DNA from: Variovorax sp. PBL-E5
GTDB taxonomy: Bacteria; Pseudomonadota; Gammaproteobacteria; Burkholderiales; Burkholderiaceae_C
Reading direction: 5' to 3'
Assembly (NCBI RefSeq): GCF_901827185.1
Contig: NZ_LR594672.1
Coordinates: 682,001-746,000 of the forward strand
Length of the DNA: 64,000 nucleotides
Below the pieces are notes generated by a model. It saw only the letters and a program-made list of their open reading frames with translations. It was not told the DNA's origin and ran no database searches. The translations under genes were made by a program, and so were the position numbers. Positions 5,079 through 60,582 of the stretch are shown here, one piece after another (within the stretch, counting starts at the first letter, position 1; the number at the start of each line of letters is the position of its first letter).

Positions 5079-5105
5079 GGATACTCCAAAAAATGGTCTA
5101 TGCGC

Positions 5106-5113
5106 GGTATAGC
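5106..5113 (-). promoter_or_regulatory. CTATAG-type promoter-like core
   Basis: Leftward GCTATACC, 28 bases upstream of ATG 5078. Confidence 0.5.
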
Positions 5114-5150
5114 AACGGCAGGAGGCGGCCCGAGAAAGCTGAATCTAGCA

Positions 5151-6863: not shown

Positions 6864-6978
6864 GGTGTCCTTGAGTTGTGGGAAGACGAGCTTCCGGTTG
6901 TGATATTTCCTTGTCCGTCGTCTAGGAACCGCCAGCAGGTGGTCTGGCGCCGTCCCGTTTAGGCAGGGGCGCCGGCAT

Positions 6979-7992: not shown

Positions 7993-8017
7993 CCTTTGAG
8001 GTGTGTTGCCTCAAAGG
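7993..8017 (-). promoter_or_regulatory. inverted repeat covering the ribosome site of the queuosine-salvage-like gene
   Basis: CCTTTGAGG (7993-8001) and CCTCAAAGG (8009-8017) form a 9-bp perfect stem with a 7-base loop. In the transcript the right arm contains the AAAGGA ribosome site of ATG 7982, so folding would hide it. It could equally be a repressor operator. Confidence 0.55.
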
Positions 8018-8074
8018 TGTAGGGAGCCCTCTTATCGCTATGGCGGCGATACCTCGCCGTACGGTATACGTGCG

Positions 8075-9356: not shown

Positions 9357-9543
9357 TGCGGCTCATGCCCGCGGAGCTGTGATGCGACTTGTAGAAAGAC
9401 GAGTTTAGCCCTCGACCTAAAACAATGCTTACGGGATGCATTTTAGGTGTGCTACAATGGCTGCGCTTTAGATTGATGAAAGCGGCTTAAAGTGATTCAT
9501 TCCGCTCCCGTTCCCCTGTAGCTAAGTTGGCGAGGAAACCGCC

Positions 9544-11073: not shown

Positions 11074-11101
11074 AAGTCGCCCCATTGGGCGACTTTCTTT
11101 T
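11074..11101 (+). terminator. intrinsic terminator
   Basis: A 9-bp perfect stem (AAGTCGCCC at 11074-11082 with GGGCGACTT at 11087-11095) is followed by TCTTTT. Confidence 0.9.
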
Positions 11102-11149
11102 GGCTAAACGCGCCAGCTACAGGTTGCGTCTTCGAACCCACAACACGCC

Positions 11150-11890: not shown

Positions 11891-11975
11891 GCCTATATCC
11901 GCGGGCCGCCCGGCCCGGCGGCGCTGCGCCGTTGTAGCTACACGCAGGGTATTCCACCACTAGGACACCTGCACA

Positions 11976-13692: not shown

Positions 13693-13729
13693 GTTGACTC
13701 AACGTTCAAATAGTTAAATGTTCCTGGGC

Positions 13730-13739
13730 CGTATAGCGA
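13730..13739 (-). promoter_or_regulatory. CTATAG-type promoter-like core
   Basis: Leftward TCGCTATACG, 38 bases upstream of ATG 13692. Confidence 0.55.
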
Positions 13740-15982: not shown

Positions 15983-16047
15983 GATTCTGTTGGGGAGGGG
16001 TCCGCCTTGTAGAGAGGTGGTTTAGCCGGAGCCGCTCGTCGCGGGCG

Positions 16048-18530: not shown

Positions 18531-18591
18531 GAAAGTGGTTCCTTAAAAGCACGAGGTTTGGTTTCGCCACCCTCGCTGGTGGCCTCACCCG

Positions 18592-18601
18592 CCTATAGCG
18601 A
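18592..18601 (-). promoter_or_regulatory. CTATAG-type promoter-like core of the DNA polymerase gene
   Basis: Leftward TCGCTATAGG, 62 bases upstream of ATG 18530; an exact copy of the consensus. Confidence 0.6.
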
Positions 18602-18783
18602 ACAGCGCCTACCGTGCTTTGCTGAGACCTTAAATCGCGCAGCTTCATGGCCGCACCCCGGGCTAAAGGGCATGGCTATCCCCTGAGACCGACCTCAATT
18701 TCGTGCTCACCAGACCTCACGCGGTTTACGTGGAGACCTGATATCGCTTCGCCCGGGCATGCGTTTGCCGTCAACTAGTCGTG

Positions 18784-18792
18784 CCTATACGA
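18784..18792 (+). promoter_or_regulatory. CTATAG-type promoter-like core
   Basis: CCTATACGA, 37 bases upstream of ATG 18829. Confidence 0.5.
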
Positions 18793-18828
18793 GCTCGTTA
18801 GGTCAACTAGAAGAAACCAGTTCTCGAT

Positions 18829-19770: not shown

Positions 19771-19837
19771 GGCGCGACGCCTAAACGGTTGCGCTAGACA
19801 GGGCTCACCCTCGCCGCGAAGCCGCTTAAACCCGCCC

Positions 19838-21971: not shown

Positions 21972-22034
21972 TGGGTGTTTCTCCATAATTAAAAAAGGTG
22001 CCTTACAGAGCGCAGAACAACCGCGCTACTGAGA

Positions 22035-22044
22035 CCTATAGCGA
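22035..22044 (-). promoter_or_regulatory. CTATAG-type promoter-like core of the rIIB-like gene
   Basis: Leftward TCGCTATAGG, an exact copy of the consensus, 49-64 bases before the two possible starts. A second core (leftward GCGTATAGG, 22062-22070) lies 27 bases further upstream. Confidence 0.6.
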
Positions 22045-22127: not shown

Positions 22128-24752
22128 CTACGCTGCGAGTAGCATGGCTTCGGCGGTGACTTCGGCGGCAGGCTCGGGAGCACCGTCGCTGTTGGCAGCT
22201 TCGGCGGTCACATCGACTTGGGTGTCCGATGAGTCCTCGGCGACGTCCGGCTCGTCTGCATCTTCCTGCACAGCGTCTTCTGGCTCTTCGGCTTCCTCCA
22301 ACTCCACCCTTTCTCCGGGCAGGGGGTCAAGCGCGAGCGCCGTCACGAGCATGGTGGCCGCCTTTTCAGGCGATTCGGCCATGACCTTCAGCAGGGCGTC
22401 GTCGTCGAAGATGCTCGATGCCAGGGGGTAGCTCTTGCCGACTGACTGACTCACCTCATACGGCGTCTTGCGCTTGCACTCGGTCACGTCGAGATACGCG
22501 CCGTCGATGTGTGACTGCAGGTACTTGAGCTCCGTTGCCAAGTCGTCGTCCCCGAGCGCTCCGTTCACCTTGAACGCAAAAGCTGCAACCTCCTCCAGCA
22601 AGGGATGCCCGGCGAGCCGAGGCTCAAGCGCTTCCCATGCAGGGGTACGCTTCAGCAGATGCATTGCCAGGATGCCTAGCAGCGAGTACTGCTTCGCGAT
22701 GTAGGGCTGCGCCAGGTCTGCCTTGGGCGTGCGGTCGATGCTTGCGACCAAGCGCTTCCAGTTGCTTCCCGATTTCAGCTTGCCGACTGTCCAGGTCATC
22801 AGCGGGCGGTAGCCCAGTTCGACCAGTTTCAGCCGACGCACTGTCGCCTCGCTTTCCACCATCACGGCGCCGGCAACCTCGTGGCCGAGGCGCTTGAGCA
22901 CCCGTTGCATGGTCCGCATCGTGCTGCAGAAGTCCCGCTCGCGCGGGCCAACCCAGCCGGTCGAGCCATGATTCATGAACCGGTCGCGGCGTCGGATGAC
23001 GTAGAACTTCTCGGCTTCTTCCTCAATGTCGCCCAGCGTCGTCTTCGAGGTGCCACCCGCGGCAAAAGTGGTGAAGGTCACCTCTTCGCCGGCGGTCAGC
23101 TCCTCTAGCGTCATCGACTTGCGCATTCTGCGTCGTTCGAGGTCCGAGGCGTAACTCGGAGACACCGGCAGCGTCGAGGTCCCTGCACACGGCAGGCCTT
23201 CGATTCCGTCCGGACCGCAAATCCGCTCACCCAATGCCTTCGCGTGAACGGCGTCCACGCCCCGGCCAGCTACGACTAGGAAGAATGCATCGGTCGGGGA
23301 GCCCGACTGCCTCAGCGCGTAGCGGATACGCGCGTCAGCGGACTTGCTGTCCGAGTAGTAAACCCGGGTGTCCGAGAGCACCGGCACGGTGGTCAGAACC
23401 GGCTTGTCCTTGGTGAAGTCCTGATAGCCGTTGACGACTTCCTTCTTGCGGATACCGGTTTCGGTGGAGCGATACAGCCACACGCGGCAGCTGTTGTTCT
23501 GCCAGGTGGCGTCGACGACCGGATTTCCGGCGACGTCGCGAATCCAGTCGCCATCTGCATCCTTCTGGTAGGGCTGCTGCTTGCCCATGATGCCGTCGCC
23601 GACCTTGGGGAAGGTGAGCGCGCTCTCGTTTGCGACCTGTCGGATGTGCTCGATGTCGTCCTTGCCCACGCCGGCCTCCTTGAGGAAGCTGATGAGATTC
23701 ATGCGGATGCTCGAGGGAAGCGTGCTCACGTAGCTATGGACCTTGCGATACCAGGCCAGCTTCGTCGGCTCCTTGGTCATCACGTCGGCGCGTACGCGCT
23801 CCGCGACTTCCTTCACCGCCTGGTCCAGCCGCGCCATGATGGCGCTGCGAGTCTTGTCGGTGTATTGAAGTGCTTCCCGCGACACGGCCATCAGAACTTC
23901 GCCGTTGTCGACGAAGAGATGGATGCCGCCGTCCAGCAGCGCCTGCATGTTCGGCGTCAGGTCGCGCAGCCGAGCCTTTTCGATGGGATAGCGCACATTG
24001 GCCATGACGACCGCGGGCACCCGGTGGAACGTTTCGCCACTGGTTCCGAAAGGAGCGCCCATATTAAAGAAGCTGCCCTCGAAATGGAACTCTGGCTTCT
24101 TGAGAGGCTTTTCCATCCCGAGGATGCGCGGGGGTACCGTGAACCACTGGAAGATTTCCTGCGCCTTGGCGTGGAATTCAGCGATGTCCCGGTCCTGGAC
24201 CGGGAAGGTCACCATCACGCCGCTTTGCCAGTCCGGGTCGGCGTCGAAGACGCCCATGTCCGTCACTGCCGGCGAGCCGTTGTCGTCGAGGTGGCACACG
24301 TAGACGCGCTTCTTGCCTTCCTTGACCGCGACGACCGTGAAGCCGTCCTCGTTCTCGGGGTCGAAGAGCGTGTACGCAAAAGGCGATTTCGAGCCGAGAC
24401 CGAAACCACCAGTTTGGTCGTTCGATTGCTGTTTGGTCGAGACACCGTAGACGGTGTAGATGCCTTTGACTTCCTCGTCGCTGAGCCCCGGGCCCCAGTC
24501 CTTGATGTAGAACTGAAGGTCGAGCTTCGTGGGAAGCTTGACCTCGATGGGGCGGGTGGGCATGCGCCCGAAGATGTGGGCGTCCATCGCGTTGCAGCCG
24601 ACCTCGCGCTCCACGGCGCCAATCTTGTCCCCGTACAGCCCGGAGGACAGCACGTTGAACATGTGGGCGTTCTGGGCGATGCCGAAAGTGGCGGTCTGGC
24701 CGACACCTTGCTTTGCTACGACCGAAGTCGAAGAGCTTTGTGAAACCTGCAT
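22128..24752 (-). CDS. rIIA: rIIA-like GHKL ATPase
   Basis: An 874-residue protein with an N-terminal Bergerat-fold ATPase domain: N box EREVGCNAMDAH, G1 box KDWGPGLS, G2 box GGFGLGSKSPFAY (about residues 47-135). The size, ATPase domain, long unassigned C-terminal part and position directly upstream of an rIIB-like gene fit the phage T4 rIIA family. The last 100 residues are acidic (LEEAEEPEDAVQEDADEPDV) and end in an Ala-rich tail. T4 rIIA protects late infection from exclusion systems; the ATP-dependent action is unknown. Its own terminator separates it from rIIB, so the two are separate units. A promoter-like core lies 46 bases before ATG 24752. Confidence 0.85.
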   Translation of the reverse strand: MQVSQSSSTSVVAKQGVGQTATFGIAQNAHMFNVLSSGLYGDKIGAVEREVGCNAMDAHIFGRMPTRPIEVKLPTKLDLQFYIKDWGPGLSDEEVKGIYTVYGVSTKQQSNDQTGGFGLGSKSPFAYTLFDPENEDGFTVVAVKEGKKRVYVCHLDDNGSPAVTDMGVFDADPDWQSGVMVTFPVQDRDIAEFHAKAQEIFQWFTVPPRILGMEKPLKKPEFHFEGSFFNMGAPFGTSGETFHRVPAVVMANVRYPIEKARLRDLTPNMQALLDGGIHLFVDNGEVLMAVSREALQYTDKTRSAIMARLDQAVKEVAERVRADVMTKEPTKLAWYRKVHSYVSTLPSSIRMNLISFLKEAGVGKDDIEHIRQVANESALTFPKVGDGIMGKQQPYQKDADGDWIRDVAGNPVVDATWQNNSCRVWLYRSTETGIRKKEVVNGYQDFTKDKPVLTTVPVLSDTRVYYSDSKSADARIRYALRQSGSPTDAFFLVVAGRGVDAVHAKALGERICGPDGIEGLPCAGTSTLPVSPSYASDLERRRMRKSMTLEELTAGEEVTFTTFAAGGTSKTTLGDIEEEAEKFYVIRRRDRFMNHGSTGWVGPRERDFCSTMRTMQRVLKRLGHEVAGAVMVESEATVRRLKLVELGYRPLMTWTVGKLKSGSNWKRLVASIDRTPKADLAQPYIAKQYSLLGILAMHLLKRTPAWEALEPRLAGHPLLEEVAAFAFKVNGALGDDDLATELKYLQSHIDGAYLDVTECKRKTPYEVSQSVGKSYPLASSIFDDDALLKVMAESPEKAATMLVTALALDPLPGERVELEEAEEPEDAVQEDADEPDVAEDSSDTQVDVTAEAANSDGAPEPAAEVTAEAMLLAA

Positions 24753-24797
24753 TGGGGGTCCCGTTTCCTGAGTGAGTTGATAAATGTTCCTGTGAGT

Positions 24798-24807
24798 CGT
24801 ATAGGGA
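24798..24807 (-). promoter_or_regulatory. CTATAG-type promoter-like core of the rIIA-like gene
   Basis: Leftward CTCCCTATACG, 46 bases upstream of ATG 24752. Confidence 0.5.
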
Positions 24808-25550: not shown

Positions 25551-25784
25551 GATGAGGTCCGTTGTGGGTTTTTTTGGATGTCGCGGGGCTTATTCCCCGC
25601 AGTGCCGAAAGTCTAAAAGTCATCGCTAACCATCCCAACGGCTTTCGCTACCCAGTTGTGAGCATCCTCACATCCGCCTGCAATCCGCTCGGGCTAACCC
25701 CGTGACGCATTTCACGGTTCCGAGCTGACGCTACACAAAGTAAGACCAACTAATTAACCAGAAACCATGAAGCAGGACACCAAC

Positions 25785-27262: not shown

Positions 27263-27325
27263 TTCCGCGCCTGGCTAACGATGGCTAAACAACATGCCTA
27301 GATTCAGGCATTCCAGGAGCATCGA

Positions 27326-32563: not shown

Positions 32564-32629
32564 GGGGTCGCTCCTCAGATGTTGACAGTGGTCCTAGGGG
32601 TGACTGAAGGGGAAGTACTTCAGACAAGA

Positions 32630-32639
32630 CCTATAGCGA
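32630..32639 (-). promoter_or_regulatory. CTATAG-type promoter-like core
   Basis: Leftward TCGCTATAGG, exact consensus, 67 bases upstream of ATG 32563. Confidence 0.6.
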
Positions 32640-34961: not shown

Positions 34962-35007
34962 GGCAATCCTTGTGGATGAGAGAAAGGGCAGGGCGTTGCG
35001 CCCCTCT

Positions 35008-35016
35008 CGTATAGCC
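35008..35016 (-). promoter_or_regulatory. CTATAG-type promoter-like core
   Basis: Leftward GGCTATACG, 47 bases upstream of ATG 34961. Confidence 0.5.
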
Positions 35017-35036
35017 AGGAGTCCGAGGCGTCCAAA

Positions 35037-35244: not shown

Positions 35245-35275
35245 AGGGGCCTCGAAAAACGTAGTTGAACTCAGC

Positions 35276-35285
35276 CCTATAGCGA
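35276..35285 (-). promoter_or_regulatory. CTATAG-type promoter-like core
   Basis: Leftward TCGCTATAGG, exact consensus, 32 bases upstream of ATG 35244. Confidence 0.6.
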
Positions 35286-36463: not shown

Positions 36464-36473
36464 TCGCTATAGA
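36464..36473 (+). promoter_or_regulatory. CTATAG-type promoter-like core of the primase gene
   Basis: TCGCTATAGA, 27 bases upstream of ATG 36500; TTCAAC lies 18 bases before TATAGA as a possible -35. Confidence 0.55.
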
Positions 36474-36499
36474 AGTCAGGTCAACTGAAATCTTTAGCG

Positions 36500-42780: not shown

Positions 42781-42788
42781 GTTAGCTG

Positions 42789-42796
42789 GCTATACC
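42789..42796 (+). promoter_or_regulatory. CTATAG-type promoter-like core
   Basis: GCTATACC, 28 bases upstream of ATG 42824 and 9 bases after the RecD2 stop. Confidence 0.45.
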
Positions 42797-42823
42797 GAGG
42801 GCAACTACCAGCCCCGGAAATCC

Positions 42824-45096: not shown

Positions 45097-45236
45097 CTCC
45101 GTTTAAGCACAAAAAAGCCGCGCATCTCCCGACGACAGCGCCACGGCTGCGGCCTCGGGGCGCTCAAAAACCTCAGCAGTTCTAGGCCTTTGCTCCGACC
45201 CTGGCTACACGTGTCAGGACAATAACTGGAGCAGAC

Positions 45237-46316
45237 ATGCAGACCTTTCTCGTTGGAGGCGCAGTGCGCGACCTCTTGCTCGGCCTTACTCCCAAGGACC
45301 GCGACTATGTGGTGGTCGGCGCGACCGCCGAGTACATGCTCGACTGTGGATTTCGCCCCGTCGGCAAGGACTTTCCGGTCTTTTTGCACCCCCTGACGCA
45401 GGATGAATACGCGCTCGCGCGCGTGGAGCGCAAGACGGCAGCCGGCCACACGGGCTTCACGGTCTCTACTGAGAACGTGACGCTCGAGCAGGACTTGAGC
45501 CGTCGAGACCTGACCATCAATTCGATGGCGATGGCGCTCGGGGGCGACCTCATCGACCCCTTTGGGGGCAAACGCGACCTTGAGATGAAGGTACTTCGCC
45601 ACACGTCGGGCGCCTTCCTGGAAGACCCCCTGCGTGTGCTGCGCGTGGCACGATTCCAGGCTCGGTTCGGCCCCGATTGGTGTATCGAGAACAGCCTGCT
45701 CATGACGATGCATGGGATGGTCGCCGCAGGCGACCTGGCGGAACTGCCGTTCGAGCGAATCTGGGCGGAACTCAAGCGCGGCCTCATGGAGCCACATCCC
45801 GACTGCATGGTGACGACTTTGCTTGGGCTCGGGCTTCTAAGTGGCCCGAATGCGTTCAAAGGCATCAGCGTCCGGCCGGACTACGTGGAATCGCTTCGGC
45901 GCGCGGTAGCCAGCGAGGCAGCCCTCGAGGTTCGCTTCGCATGCGCCTTCCGGCTCGACAGCGACCAGGTTTCGGGCAAGCTGCCAAAAGACGTGACGGA
46001 CTTGGCGCTTTGCGTGCAGCGTGCCGAGCAGGCCGAGCTTCGCCAATTCGACAGCCTAGTCGCCCAGCGCCAACTGGCGTTGCTCGAGGGGCTCGACGTG
46101 CTGCGCCGCCCGCAACGGGTGGAAGCTACGGTGCAAGCGTTGCAGTTGATGCACACGTTCGGTGCCGACGGCTTTCGCGCGTCTTGCGATGCACTCAGGA
46201 ACATTGACTTCCAGGGCTTGGCCCAAGGGCTAGCCGGACCTGCAATCAAGCACCGCATCGAGCAGGAGAAGCTCGCCGTGTTGATTGCTCGCAAGGCCAT
46301 GGCCGCTGCCGCCTGA
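45237..46316 (+). CDS. cca: tRNA nucleotidyltransferase (CCA-adding enzyme)
   Basis: A 359-residue class II CCA enzyme: FLVGGAVRDLLLGLTPKDRD (nucleotide-binding and metal-binding DRD), YALARVERKTAAGHTGFTVS, LSRRDLTINSMAMALGGDLI, DPFGGKRDLEMKVLRHTSGA and EDPLRVLRVARFQARFG. It adds or repairs the 3' CCA of tRNA. The phosphohydrolase (HD) domain of the E. coli enzyme is absent; the C-terminal part is shorter. No tRNA gene is in the window, so it presumably acts on host tRNAs or tRNAs elsewhere on the element. Terminator follows. Confidence 0.93.
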   Translation: MQTFLVGGAVRDLLLGLTPKDRDYVVVGATAEYMLDCGFRPVGKDFPVFLHPLTQDEYALARVERKTAAGHTGFTVSTENVTLEQDLSRRDLTINSMAMALGGDLIDPFGGKRDLEMKVLRHTSGAFLEDPLRVLRVARFQARFGPDWCIENSLLMTMHGMVAAGDLAELPFERIWAELKRGLMEPHPDCMVTTLLGLGLLSGPNAFKGISVRPDYVESLRRAVASEAALEVRFACAFRLDSDQVSGKLPKDVTDLALCVQRAEQAELRQFDSLVAQRQLALLEGLDVLRRPQRVEATVQALQLMHTFGADGFRASCDALRNIDFQGLAQGLAGPAIKHRIEQEKLAVLIARKAMAAAA

Positions 46317-46927: not shown

Positions 46928-46959
46928 CGTAAAGTTTTCGTTGAATGTTGTCCTGCACC

Positions 46960-46969
46960 GGTATAGCGA
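46960..46969 (-). promoter_or_regulatory. CTATAG-type promoter-like core
   Basis: Leftward TCGCTATACC, 33 bases upstream of ATG 46927. Confidence 0.55.
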
Positions 46970-47110
46970 CCGAACGGAACCCACTGGCAGTTGAGAATAG
47001 TGGGCACAAACGCTTTAGAGTTTAGAGCAACGTATGCTAAAATGCAACGCACCGACGGATGGGATTTAGCTTTTTGGCTCGCCAATTCAGGCGCGCGAGC
47101 AGGGGCAGGT

Positions 47111-47119
47111 GGCTATACG
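47111..47119 (+). promoter_or_regulatory. CTATAG-type promoter-like core
   Basis: GGCTATACG, 82 bases upstream of ATG 47201. The rest of the 46928-47200 gap holds no convincing gene; TATGCTAAAATG at about 47032 is another -10-like candidate. Confidence 0.45.
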
Positions 47120-47200
47120 TCGAACGCCCTCTAGGGCGGTATCCTTCAATCCGGCTCTTCCGCGTCTCATCGCCAGCAAGAGCCATCGACAGAGAGTTCC

Positions 47201-52269: not shown

Positions 52270-52381
52270 GATTGCATGTAAAAGGGTTCTAGCACTAGTT
52301 GTTTAGATACCGGGGGTGTCTGGACTAAGTTTTAGTTTAAACGTCCTGGCTAGACGGACAAAGCTCCCGCAATTGCAGCCA

Positions 52382-53781: not shown

Positions 53782-54211
53782 GGAGCGCGTCGAGGTCGGG
53801 CGCGAGCTCCGGGGCTACTGCCAGAAACGGGGCAAGCCAGGCGTGCACGTGGGACGCTCGCTGCTCGGGGAGCGAACCGCCTTTGAGCAGGGTGTCCATG
53901 GCGTCCAGCATTGGGCTTAGCGAGGACTTGCGCAAAAGAGGCGGGCGCGCGCGCCATTCAGTCGTTGGCACCGGGAAGACGATGTCGCGCTGCTCGATAA
54001 GGAACCGGACAGGGTCCTCGGTCGTACGGAACCGCGCGCGCAGGGTCAGCTCAGGGTCCGGCACCGTGCGGTCAACGGCGAAAGTGGCCGCAGCGAGAAG
54101 GACCGCCTTGGCGTCGTCAGCGCGGGCTGCGTGGTGCAGCTGCTGAAAGCGCCCAGCAAAGGCCAGGGCGACCGCCTGGTAGGCGCTCCGGCTGAGCGTG
54201 CCGAGGCTCAC
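53753..54211 (-). CDS. hypothetical protein
   Basis: A 152-residue soluble protein. GTG 54211 overlaps the preceding stop (GTGA), which fixes the start and implies coupling. Helical with hydrophobic patches (PFLAVAPELAPDLDALL); no family recognised. Its 3' end overlaps the convergent gene by 29 bases. Confidence 0.6.
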   Translation of the reverse strand: MSLGTLSRSAYQAVALAFAGRFQQLHHAARADDAKAVLLAAATFAVDRTVPDPELTLRARFRTTEDPVRFLIEQRDIVFPVPTTEWRARPPLLRKSSLSPMLDAMDTLLKGGSLPEQRASHVHAWLAPFLAVAPELAPDLDALLNVPARRRA

Positions 54212-54531
54212 GAGCGGGCTTCCTGGAGCCAGTTGACGTTGACAGGGACGCTGACCATCCCGAGCTGGACCTGGCGCTCGAAGAGCAACCCATTGTGCAG
54301 TTCGGTCAAGGACGGGTATTCGGAGCAGACCGCCATGCATTCAAAGCTTTCGAGCTGGCTCTGAATCATGGTCTTGGCACGTACGGCGGCTTCGCGATAG
54401 AGGCGGGGCGACAGCACGAGCCGGCGGCTGTCCGCAGCATCAAGCATCATCCCATAGCGGCCAAGCTCGACGCGAACTTCTTCCGGCGTGAGGGCGGCGA
54501 GGCCGGGGGCTGCAGCTTTGATGTTTGTCAT
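54208..54531 (-). CDS. hypothetical protein, first gene of a leaderless operon
   Basis: 107 residues, helical, no recognised motif (MTNIKAAAPGLAALTPEEVR at the start). A consensus-like promoter places transcription start at the ATG itself. GTGA overlap with the next gene. Function unknown. Confidence 0.65.
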   Translation of the reverse strand: MTNIKAAAPGLAALTPEEVRVELGRYGMMLDAADSRRLVLSPRLYREAAVRAKTMIQSQLESFECMAVCSEYPSLTELHNGLLFERQVQLGMVSVPVNVNWLQEARS

Positions 54532-54537
54532 GCTTAA

Positions 54538-54567
54538 AGTATACCATCAGAACCACTTTACGGTCAA
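54538..54567 (-). promoter_or_regulatory. sigma70-like promoter giving a leaderless transcript
   Basis: Leftward TTGACC (54562-54567), 18-base spacer, TATACT (54538-54543). The -10 ends seven bases before ATG 54531, so the mRNA would begin at or next to the start codon. Confidence 0.7.
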
Positions 54568-56740: not shown

Positions 56741-56894
56741 AACTCAGCAATGCGTGTCCTGCGTAAGCGGGTTATCGGCATCCCGCAGCAGTCTTGAAGT
56801 CCGCGCGCTGCGTATCGCAATTTCTTGAAGGCGCCTTAGGCACGCGTCAAAACCTTGCTCCCTACACCTCCTGGACACAACCAAGGAGGTAAAT

Positions 56895-57722: not shown

Positions 57723-57802
57723 CTGGCGAATCCCGCGCGGCCGCTGTTTAAACGCCCGTGCCTGTACGAGGCACACGCTCCCGCAACTCTTCTGTGTCTC
57801 AA

Positions 57803-60418: not shown

Positions 60419-60446
60419 TGAGATGTCCTTTGTGGTGAAAACTGCC

Positions 60447-60455
60447 ACGTATAGG
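60447..60455 (-). promoter_or_regulatory. CTATAG-type promoter-like core
   Basis: Leftward TCCTATACGT, about 29 bases upstream of ATG 60418. Confidence 0.45.
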
Positions 60456-60582
60456 AAGTCTCGCGGGCGAAGCGTTCATACTTAAAACCACGCAACCTAC
60501 CCAGCTGACCTGCGCGATTGTCACCAACCGCGATGCCATCAAGGCCCGGAGCCTGCGCAAGTTCGGAAGCCCTGCAATCCAG

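Follow-up and report, generated by a model that had tools for sequence, protein, structure and literature searches.

Plasmid genes are usually assumed to follow the promoter rules of their host. The housekeeping -10 element of Caulobacter and other alphaproteobacteria is GCTANAWC, in a class that has a -35 element, and its G-C-T-A-N-A core is shared by the motif described here, the hosts of which are a beta- and a gammaproteobacterium. The extended -10 promoters of sigmaS, as given in the excerpt of PMC5650638, follow KCTAYRCTTAA, with a K-C-T-A-Y-R-C core in common with our motif and a -35 element that is not always required and often dispensable. Compared with them, the plasmid motif has a G at -7, an A eleven bases after the core C and an extra upstream T, and the chromosome sample hardly uses it. 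The early promoters of jumbo phages that encode an RNA polymerase, in the part of PMC7598289 that deals with them, are likewise element-specific, lie near -10 and precede many operons; in contrast, the carrier of our motif has no recognised polymerase and is conjugative with Tra, Rep and Par genes, and AT-richness is not a feature of the motif. The megaplasmid review PMC8628078 uses none of the terms promoter, RNA polymerase and sigma factor. From the comparisons below, slightly more speaks for than against a reading of the motif as the core of a -10-only promoter class dedicated to a giant conjugative plasmid family, with a phage-like two-tier wiring.

The window, i.e. the whole stretch of 64,000 nucleotides, maps to the reverse strand of contig C2 at bases 54,536-118,535. 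C2 has a length of 839,194 bp, and the rest of the 6.87-Mb genome consists of a 5.99-Mb chromosome and a 42-kb contig. C2 is an 839-kb conjugative megaplasmid of a Variovorax. Because a DNA polymerase encoded in the window is 100% identical to copies on plasmid 2 of Variovorax sp. WDL1 and on a plasmid of SRS16, we take C2 to belong to their type of megaplasmid. For WDL1 plasmid 2, the gene table in PLSDB, which is incomplete and was inspected for all but about 200 bp, lists F-type conjugation genes, RepB, ParAB, RecA, topoisomerase IV, LigA, LigD/Ku, SecA, SmpB, thymidylate synthase and a type I-E CRISPR system. On C2, 907 genes with predicted starts were called by our own hexamer-based caller; in one stretch compared by eye with the WDL1 table, the stops agree and some starts differ. 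Chromosomal upstream regions came from 1.02 of the 5.99 Mb, and exact strings were counted over the whole chromosome.

The initial annotation had described TCGCTATAGG as a promoter-like element that recurs before genes. This recurrence was confirmed and is larger than described. CGCTATA[GC] occurs nine times in the window (eight copies intergenic, one touching coding DNA) against a mean of 0.81 and a maximum of 3 in 100 dinucleotide shuffles. TCGCTATAGG itself has all 11 of its genomic copies on C2 and represents one sub-type of a broader megaplasmid consensus, TNGCTANACGN4A. A motif search of the gaps on the complete element recovers it: de novo expectation-maximisation (EM) on 714 upstream regions of C2 converged in 10 of 15 random starts on the gene-oriented T-N-G-C-T-A-[TC]-A-C-G-N4-A, with a posterior weight that puts the motif in about 39% of the regions. 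Model-free hexamer counts gave the same core as CTATAC, CTACAC, CTAGAC and CTAAAC, and an EM run on the antisense strand of C2 converged simply on the reverse complement of the motif. The aligned C2 sites (sets of 136 sites and of 130 strong sites) carry a T three bases 5' of the core C and a G or C directly before it; a G follows the core, and an A stands eleven bases downstream of the core C. In the EM matrix the core positions are K 0.70 (G 0.59, T 0.11; C 0.27), C 0.97, T 0.99, A 0.96, Y 0.75, A 0.97 and C 0.75, followed at -7 by G in 64% and T in 0.02 and at -6 by T in 0.22, so that the final T of a -10 box is missing, as had been noted.

With a position weight matrix (PWM) trained on C2 and also used for chromosome and shuffles, 223 of the 714 regions score at least 10 bits, where 20 dinucleotide shuffles gave 6.9 such regions on average and 10 at most; prevalence is 30-47% of upstream regions depending on the threshold, and these C2 fractions are optimistic because the PWM was trained on C2. 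Strand-aware counts of CTATA[GC] over the whole of C2 gave 1.52 per kb between genes (227 copies) and 0.116 per kb in coding DNA (80 copies), a 13-fold difference in density that bears out the remark that almost no copies lie in coding DNA. From CTATA[GC] to the next same-strand start on C2, distances cluster at about 26-40 nt; for the motif as a whole the distance to the start codon is usually 25-40 nt with a mode of 25-34 nt, within the 25-80 nt given earlier. Among backbone genes, the motif precedes 3 of 132 that lie less than 40 bp behind a co-directional neighbour and 103 of 219 with a gap of at least 100 bp, and the tRNA and tmRNA genes of C2 mostly do without it (2 of 44 have it). The leader turns G-poor a few bases after the conserved A, and since the G-poor leader begins there, the transcription start is predicted near this A, either at it or at one of the next two bases. 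Strand, distance, position in the gaps between genes and conservation in a distant relative (see below) thus support the earlier view of a promoter belonging to the element. It is very unlikely that the motif is instead the operator of a plasmid-wide regulator overlapping the promoters: one global regulator can mark hundreds of sites and the CTATAG sub-type is palindromic, but the full motif is not, it is strand-specific and lies at a promoter-like distance, and no separate promoter is visible beside it.

Nineteen positions had been listed for the window. Fourteen of them carry a motif of at least 8 bits with a same-strand start 27-82 nt away by our own gene calls, one of these (15554) preceding only a 35-aa ORF that is not in the WDL1 plasmid 2 table. 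The copy at 42789 fits (27 nt) with the WDL1 plasmid 2 start but not with our own, and that at 35008 is a motif with the next start 182 nt away. The remaining three positions disagree: 27254 is 5 nt from its start, the best site near 2414 is shifted and 200 nt away, and for 22062 the next same-strand start is 3.7 kb away. The sites in the window are collected in the table. The site of finding precedes the DNA polymerase gene, the Agitococcus orthologue of which has TAGCTATACG at 66 nt before its start.

Table. Motif sites, one host-type promoter and the DNA polymerase gene in the window (window coordinates; distances are to the next same-strand start)
Feature	Position	Strand	Remark
Motif	5101..5115	-	28 nt before start 5078
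Motif, CTAGAC type	6914..6928	-	56 nt before start 6863
Motif, CTACAC type	8011..8025	-	34 nt before start
Motif, CTACAA type	9383..9397	-	32 nt before start
Motif, weak, 8.2 bits	10218..10232	+	55 nt before start
Motif, CTAAAC type	11101..11115	+	40 nt before start
Motif, CTACAC type	11935..11949	+	32 nt before start
Motif TCGCTATACGGCCCA	13725..13739	-	38 nt before start
Motif, 9.3 bits	15549..15563	-	Precedes 35-aa ORF missing from the (incomplete) WDL1 plasmid 2 table
Motif, CTACAA type	16001..16015	-	24 nt before start
Family A DNA polymerase gene, 809 aa	16101..18530	-	Pfam DNA_pol_A; motif 18587..18601 upstream
Motif TCGCTATAGGCGGGT, site of finding	18587..18601	-	62 nt before DNA polymerase gene
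Motif, divergent from polymerase site	18782..18796	+	38 nt before start
Motif, CTAGAC type	19791..19805	+	38 nt before start
Motif	22030..22044	-	64 nt before start
Motif	24793..24807	-	46 nt before rIIA-like gene (RIIA PHROGs)
Motif, CTACAC type	25728..25742	+	30 nt before start
Motif, CTAAAC type	27282..27296	+	35 nt before start
Motif	32625..32639	-	67 nt before start; Agitococcus orthologue 66 nt
Motif	35003..35017	-	182 nt before next start
Motif	35271..35285	-	32 nt before start; Agitococcus orthologue 29 nt
Motif	36464..36478	+	27 nt before primase-like (toprim) gene
Motif	42787..42801	+	27 nt before AAA ATPase start as annotated in WDL1 plasmid 2; start of our own caller falls upstream of motif
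Motif, CTACAC type	45202..45216	+	26 nt before PolyA_pol-head gene
Motif	46955..46969	-	33 nt before start
Motif	47110..47124	+	82 nt before start
Motif, CTAGAC type	52347..52361	+	26 nt before start
Host-type promoter TTGACC-N18-TATACT	54538..54567	-	6 nt before own-called start of 107-aa gene (54208-54531); coordinates derived from distance; WDL1 plasmid 2 start lies upstream of promoter
Motif, CTACAC type	56859..56873	+	27 nt before start
Motif, CTGTAC variant	57759..57773	+	35 nt before start
Motif	60443..60457	-	30 nt before start

The earlier statement that no common -35 element is visible holds on the whole megaplasmid: of 243 C2 sites, 15 have TTG at -35 spacing and 16 have it at a control spacing. 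Upstream of the motif, no position from -60 to -4 exceeds 0.07 bits in the 136 sites, nor about 0.12 bits in the 130 strong sites. TTGAC shows no sense preference on C2 (80 sense, 90 antisense). On the chromosome it occurs 51 times in sense and 34 times in antisense in 522 regions (TTGACA 16 and 7); in a smaller sample of 112 regions the counts were 8 and 1, a bias that shrank in the larger sample.

The motif is concentrated on the plasmid. CGCTATAS has 48 copies on C2 (0.84 Mb) and 39 on the 5.99-Mb chromosome, and a PWM score of at least 10 is reached by 29.7% of the 714 C2 regions, an optimistic value for the training element, versus 0.3% of 324 chromosomal regions (Fisher p = 3e-38). This supports the motif as a putative signal of the element itself, hardly used by the host chromosome as sampled. 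Within C2, the stretch at 460-540 kb has the motif in 0 of 50 upstream regions; with a longer upstream reach it was found in 6 of 61 regions in 455-545 kb versus 254 of 567 outside 455-655 kb. This motif-free block is taken to be accessory because of its analogy to the IS1071-rich catabolic block of WDL1. A Fisher value for accessory versus backbone regions was set aside, as two upstream lengths had been combined in it.

At E<=0.001 the C2 DNA polymerase has 665 homologues, with contigs of up to 1.5 Mb among the 120 listed. It was found in 2 of 100 Variovorax genomes, that of the window included, and in 1 of 399 genomes drawn from the family, again that of the window, and the viral contigs scanned gave no relative. 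The single distant relative compared as DNA is a syntenic 108-kb contig (47% G+C) in a metagenome-assembled genome (MAG) of Agitococcus, a host assignment that rests on MAG binning; 85 of its 115 called genes have a homologue on C2, in largely the same order. An independent de novo search of this contig returned TnGCTATAc, with the same core TNGCTATAC, and T.GCTATA precedes 18 of its 79 genes (antisense 4 of 79) versus 1 of 211 on other contigs of the MAG (p = 2e-10). EM site fractions of 0.9 and above for the contig were set aside as overfitted on 79 regions. Unlike on C2, neither the G that follows the core nor the A eleven bases on is conserved. Where orthologues have a site in both elements, the distances to the start codon agree (rho 0.90, p = 1e-5, n = 14, one C2 gene being paired with two Agitococcus genes): 9 of 14 differ by at most 5 nt, against a mean of 3.2 and a maximum of 9 in 2000 re-pairings, with p of 1e-4 or less at four threshold choices. 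Only the distance correlates; the presence of the motif across orthologue pairs shows no significant correlation (p = 0.07-0.24).

The motif might be read by the sigmaS (RpoS) of the host, which would place most plasmid genes under an extended -10 promoter lacking a -35 element and have them transcribed in slow growth. Its G-C-T-A-Y-A-C indeed fits the published KCTAYRC in a row, and RpoS-family genes are present in both hosts (439.7 bits in Agitococcus, over the cut-off; 366.1 in Variovorax, just under the cut-off of 378.7). An attempt to exclude sigmaS by absence of RpoS from the second host failed, RpoS being present in Agitococcus. In sigma70 holoenzymes the T at -7 is flipped and bound by sigma domain 2, according to the excerpt of PMC7598289, but T stands at -7 in only 2% of C2 sites, where G predominates, and at -6 in 22%. 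The chromosomal look-alikes keep this T (CTAYACT 7 sense and 2 antisense; CTAYACG 1 and 5), with a T:G ratio at -7 of 7:1 compared with 14:100 in C2 (p = 1e-5), and the quoted sigmaS consensus lacks the T that is conserved three bases 5' of the core C. The -7 argument is drawn from C2, because in the Agitococcus element T (0.34 at -7, 0.30 at -6) is neither enriched nor avoided. Given G at -7 on C2, T in the look-alikes and no conservation of -7 in Agitococcus, we consider sigmaS a serious but rather unlikely reader, and regard as about evenly balanced the reading that host core RNA polymerase acts with a plasmid-encoded factor unrecognisable as a sigma factor.

The initial annotation had also proposed an element-encoded sigma factor or RNA polymerase, which is not supported so far, profile searches having recognised none on C2. 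Sigma70_r2 (Pfam) had no match on C2 even at E<=10, with 15 matches over cut-off on the chromosome, and in a profile comparison of C2 proteins of 80-700 aa with 15 host sigma factors, region 2 reached a probability of at best 7.4%, against 99.2% for the control. Higher C2 hits to the full-length sigma profile cover its C-terminal part only and were read as helix-turn-helix matches. No sigma family was found when 33 conserved C2 proteins of unknown function were compared with PHROGs and Pfam, and neither a sigma factor nor an RNA polymerase is named in the incomplete PLSDB table of WDL1 plasmid 2. The least probable reader appears to be a complete RNA polymerase encoded by the plasmid that has diverged beyond recognition. 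The early promoters of jumbo phages, roughly 10-nt, phage-specific motifs near -10 in the portion of PMC7598289 that describes them, offer a parallel, but RNA_pol_Rpb1_2 (PF00623) at E<=10 matched the chromosome and nothing on C2, T7-type RNA_pol (PF00940) had no match in the genome (nor in the control genomes), and catalytic-motif patterns found no convincing DxDGD loop among the called C2 proteins. Likeness to T7-type promoters (CACTATAGG) was considered and set aside; the upstream half is absent and PF00940 was not found.

Host-type promoters were scored on C2 as TTGACA-N15-19-TATAAT pairs in upstream regions, with textbook frequencies. At a score of at least 12 they occur in 36 of the 714 regions, and the motif (at least 8) is found in 1 of these 36 versus 273 of the other 678 (p = 4e-7). 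They are also shared between orthologues in 5 of 6 versus 4 of 42 pairs (p = 4e-4, the best of three thresholds; p = 0.003-0.004 at the other two). Conserved host-type promoters precede five genes, which encode a 106-aa protein, a 107-aa protein, RNase HI, LigA and a helicase. The predicted start of the 107-aa gene is uncertain, our call and that of WDL1 plasmid 2 being different; in its Agitococcus orthologue, TTGACA-N16-TATAAT lies 41 nt upstream of the start. This separation bears on the proposal, also made in the initial annotation, that host sigma70 reads the motif with the help of an activator; another co-factor might equally stand in for the -35 contact. Sigma70 is never missing from the host and the T-A-N-A core resembles a -10 box, but the reading is weakened because nothing conserved, neither activator site nor -35 element, lies upstream of the motif; the normal-looking host-type promoters of the plasmid moreover avoid it, and we regard this reading as improbable. 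We infer that the two nearly exclusive classes would match a host-then-element programme, although they could instead reflect independent strengths or timings.

In the preferred reading, host core RNA polymerase together with a plasmid-encoded specificity factor, not sigma-like in sequence, would read the motif. After plasmid entry, the host-type promoters would turn on their genes first, and the remaining genes would then be expressed through the private motif class, a phage-like two-tier control on a plasmid. The wider claim, that a giant-plasmid family brings its own specificity system, with a few host-type promoters acting first and hundreds of genes following through a private -10-only promoter, is tentative and leans towards doubtful. 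If true, a plasmid-borne core kept across beta- and gammaproteobacterial hosts that differ in G+C content would explain how a plasmid of 800 kb escapes cross-talk with the regulation of its host and functions in unrelated hosts. With roughly 220-270 candidate target promoters, the search for an RNA-polymerase specificity factor becomes a well-defined problem, and an orthogonal promoter set would be on offer if the factor were found.

One weak lead for this factor is the 106-aa basic protein (C2 797697-798017), a candidate whose counterpart in the Agitococcus element shares 65% identity with it over 69 residues. Its gene has the only region on C2 with both promoter types at the above cut-offs; its host-type promoter is TTGACT-N17-TATAAT in C2 and TTGACT-N17-TACACT in Agitococcus, and repeats that look operator-like lie next to it. 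The protein has 31 protein-database matches, itself included, and no known domain, and fold prediction gives a likeness to sigma domain 2 at scores that are not significant. Conservation of TNGCTANAC together with one small protein across polymerase-bearing contigs, if found, would point to the factor.

The plasmids pMPPla107, pBASL58, FeN3W and those of Bosea and Alteromonas share a distant AAA-family ATPase with C2. TNGCTAYAC was not enriched over a reversed control in any of the seven giant-plasmid records searched. Other giant plasmids may carry private signals too. A 100-kb sample of pMPPla107 has TATATTG with a T-rich stretch upstream in 20 intergenic and 2 coding copies, and in a 100-kb sample of the Alteromonas plasmid a palindromic TATGCATA, perhaps an operator, precedes many genes.

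Outside the window, mainly at 763-775 kb, C2 encodes 49 tRNA genes (one without an assigned type) that cover all 20 amino acids, and a tmRNA. In the WDL1 copy this load is accompanied by SmpB, CysRS and a class I tRNA ligase. The window encodes a Poly(A) polymerase head domain protein (45237-46316), possibly a tRNA nucleotidyltransferase, which fits the tRNA load of the plasmid. We also detected a rIIA-like gene (RIIA PHROGs, window 22128-24752) on this conjugative plasmid, and one strong rIIB match among the 33 conserved C2 proteins of unknown function.
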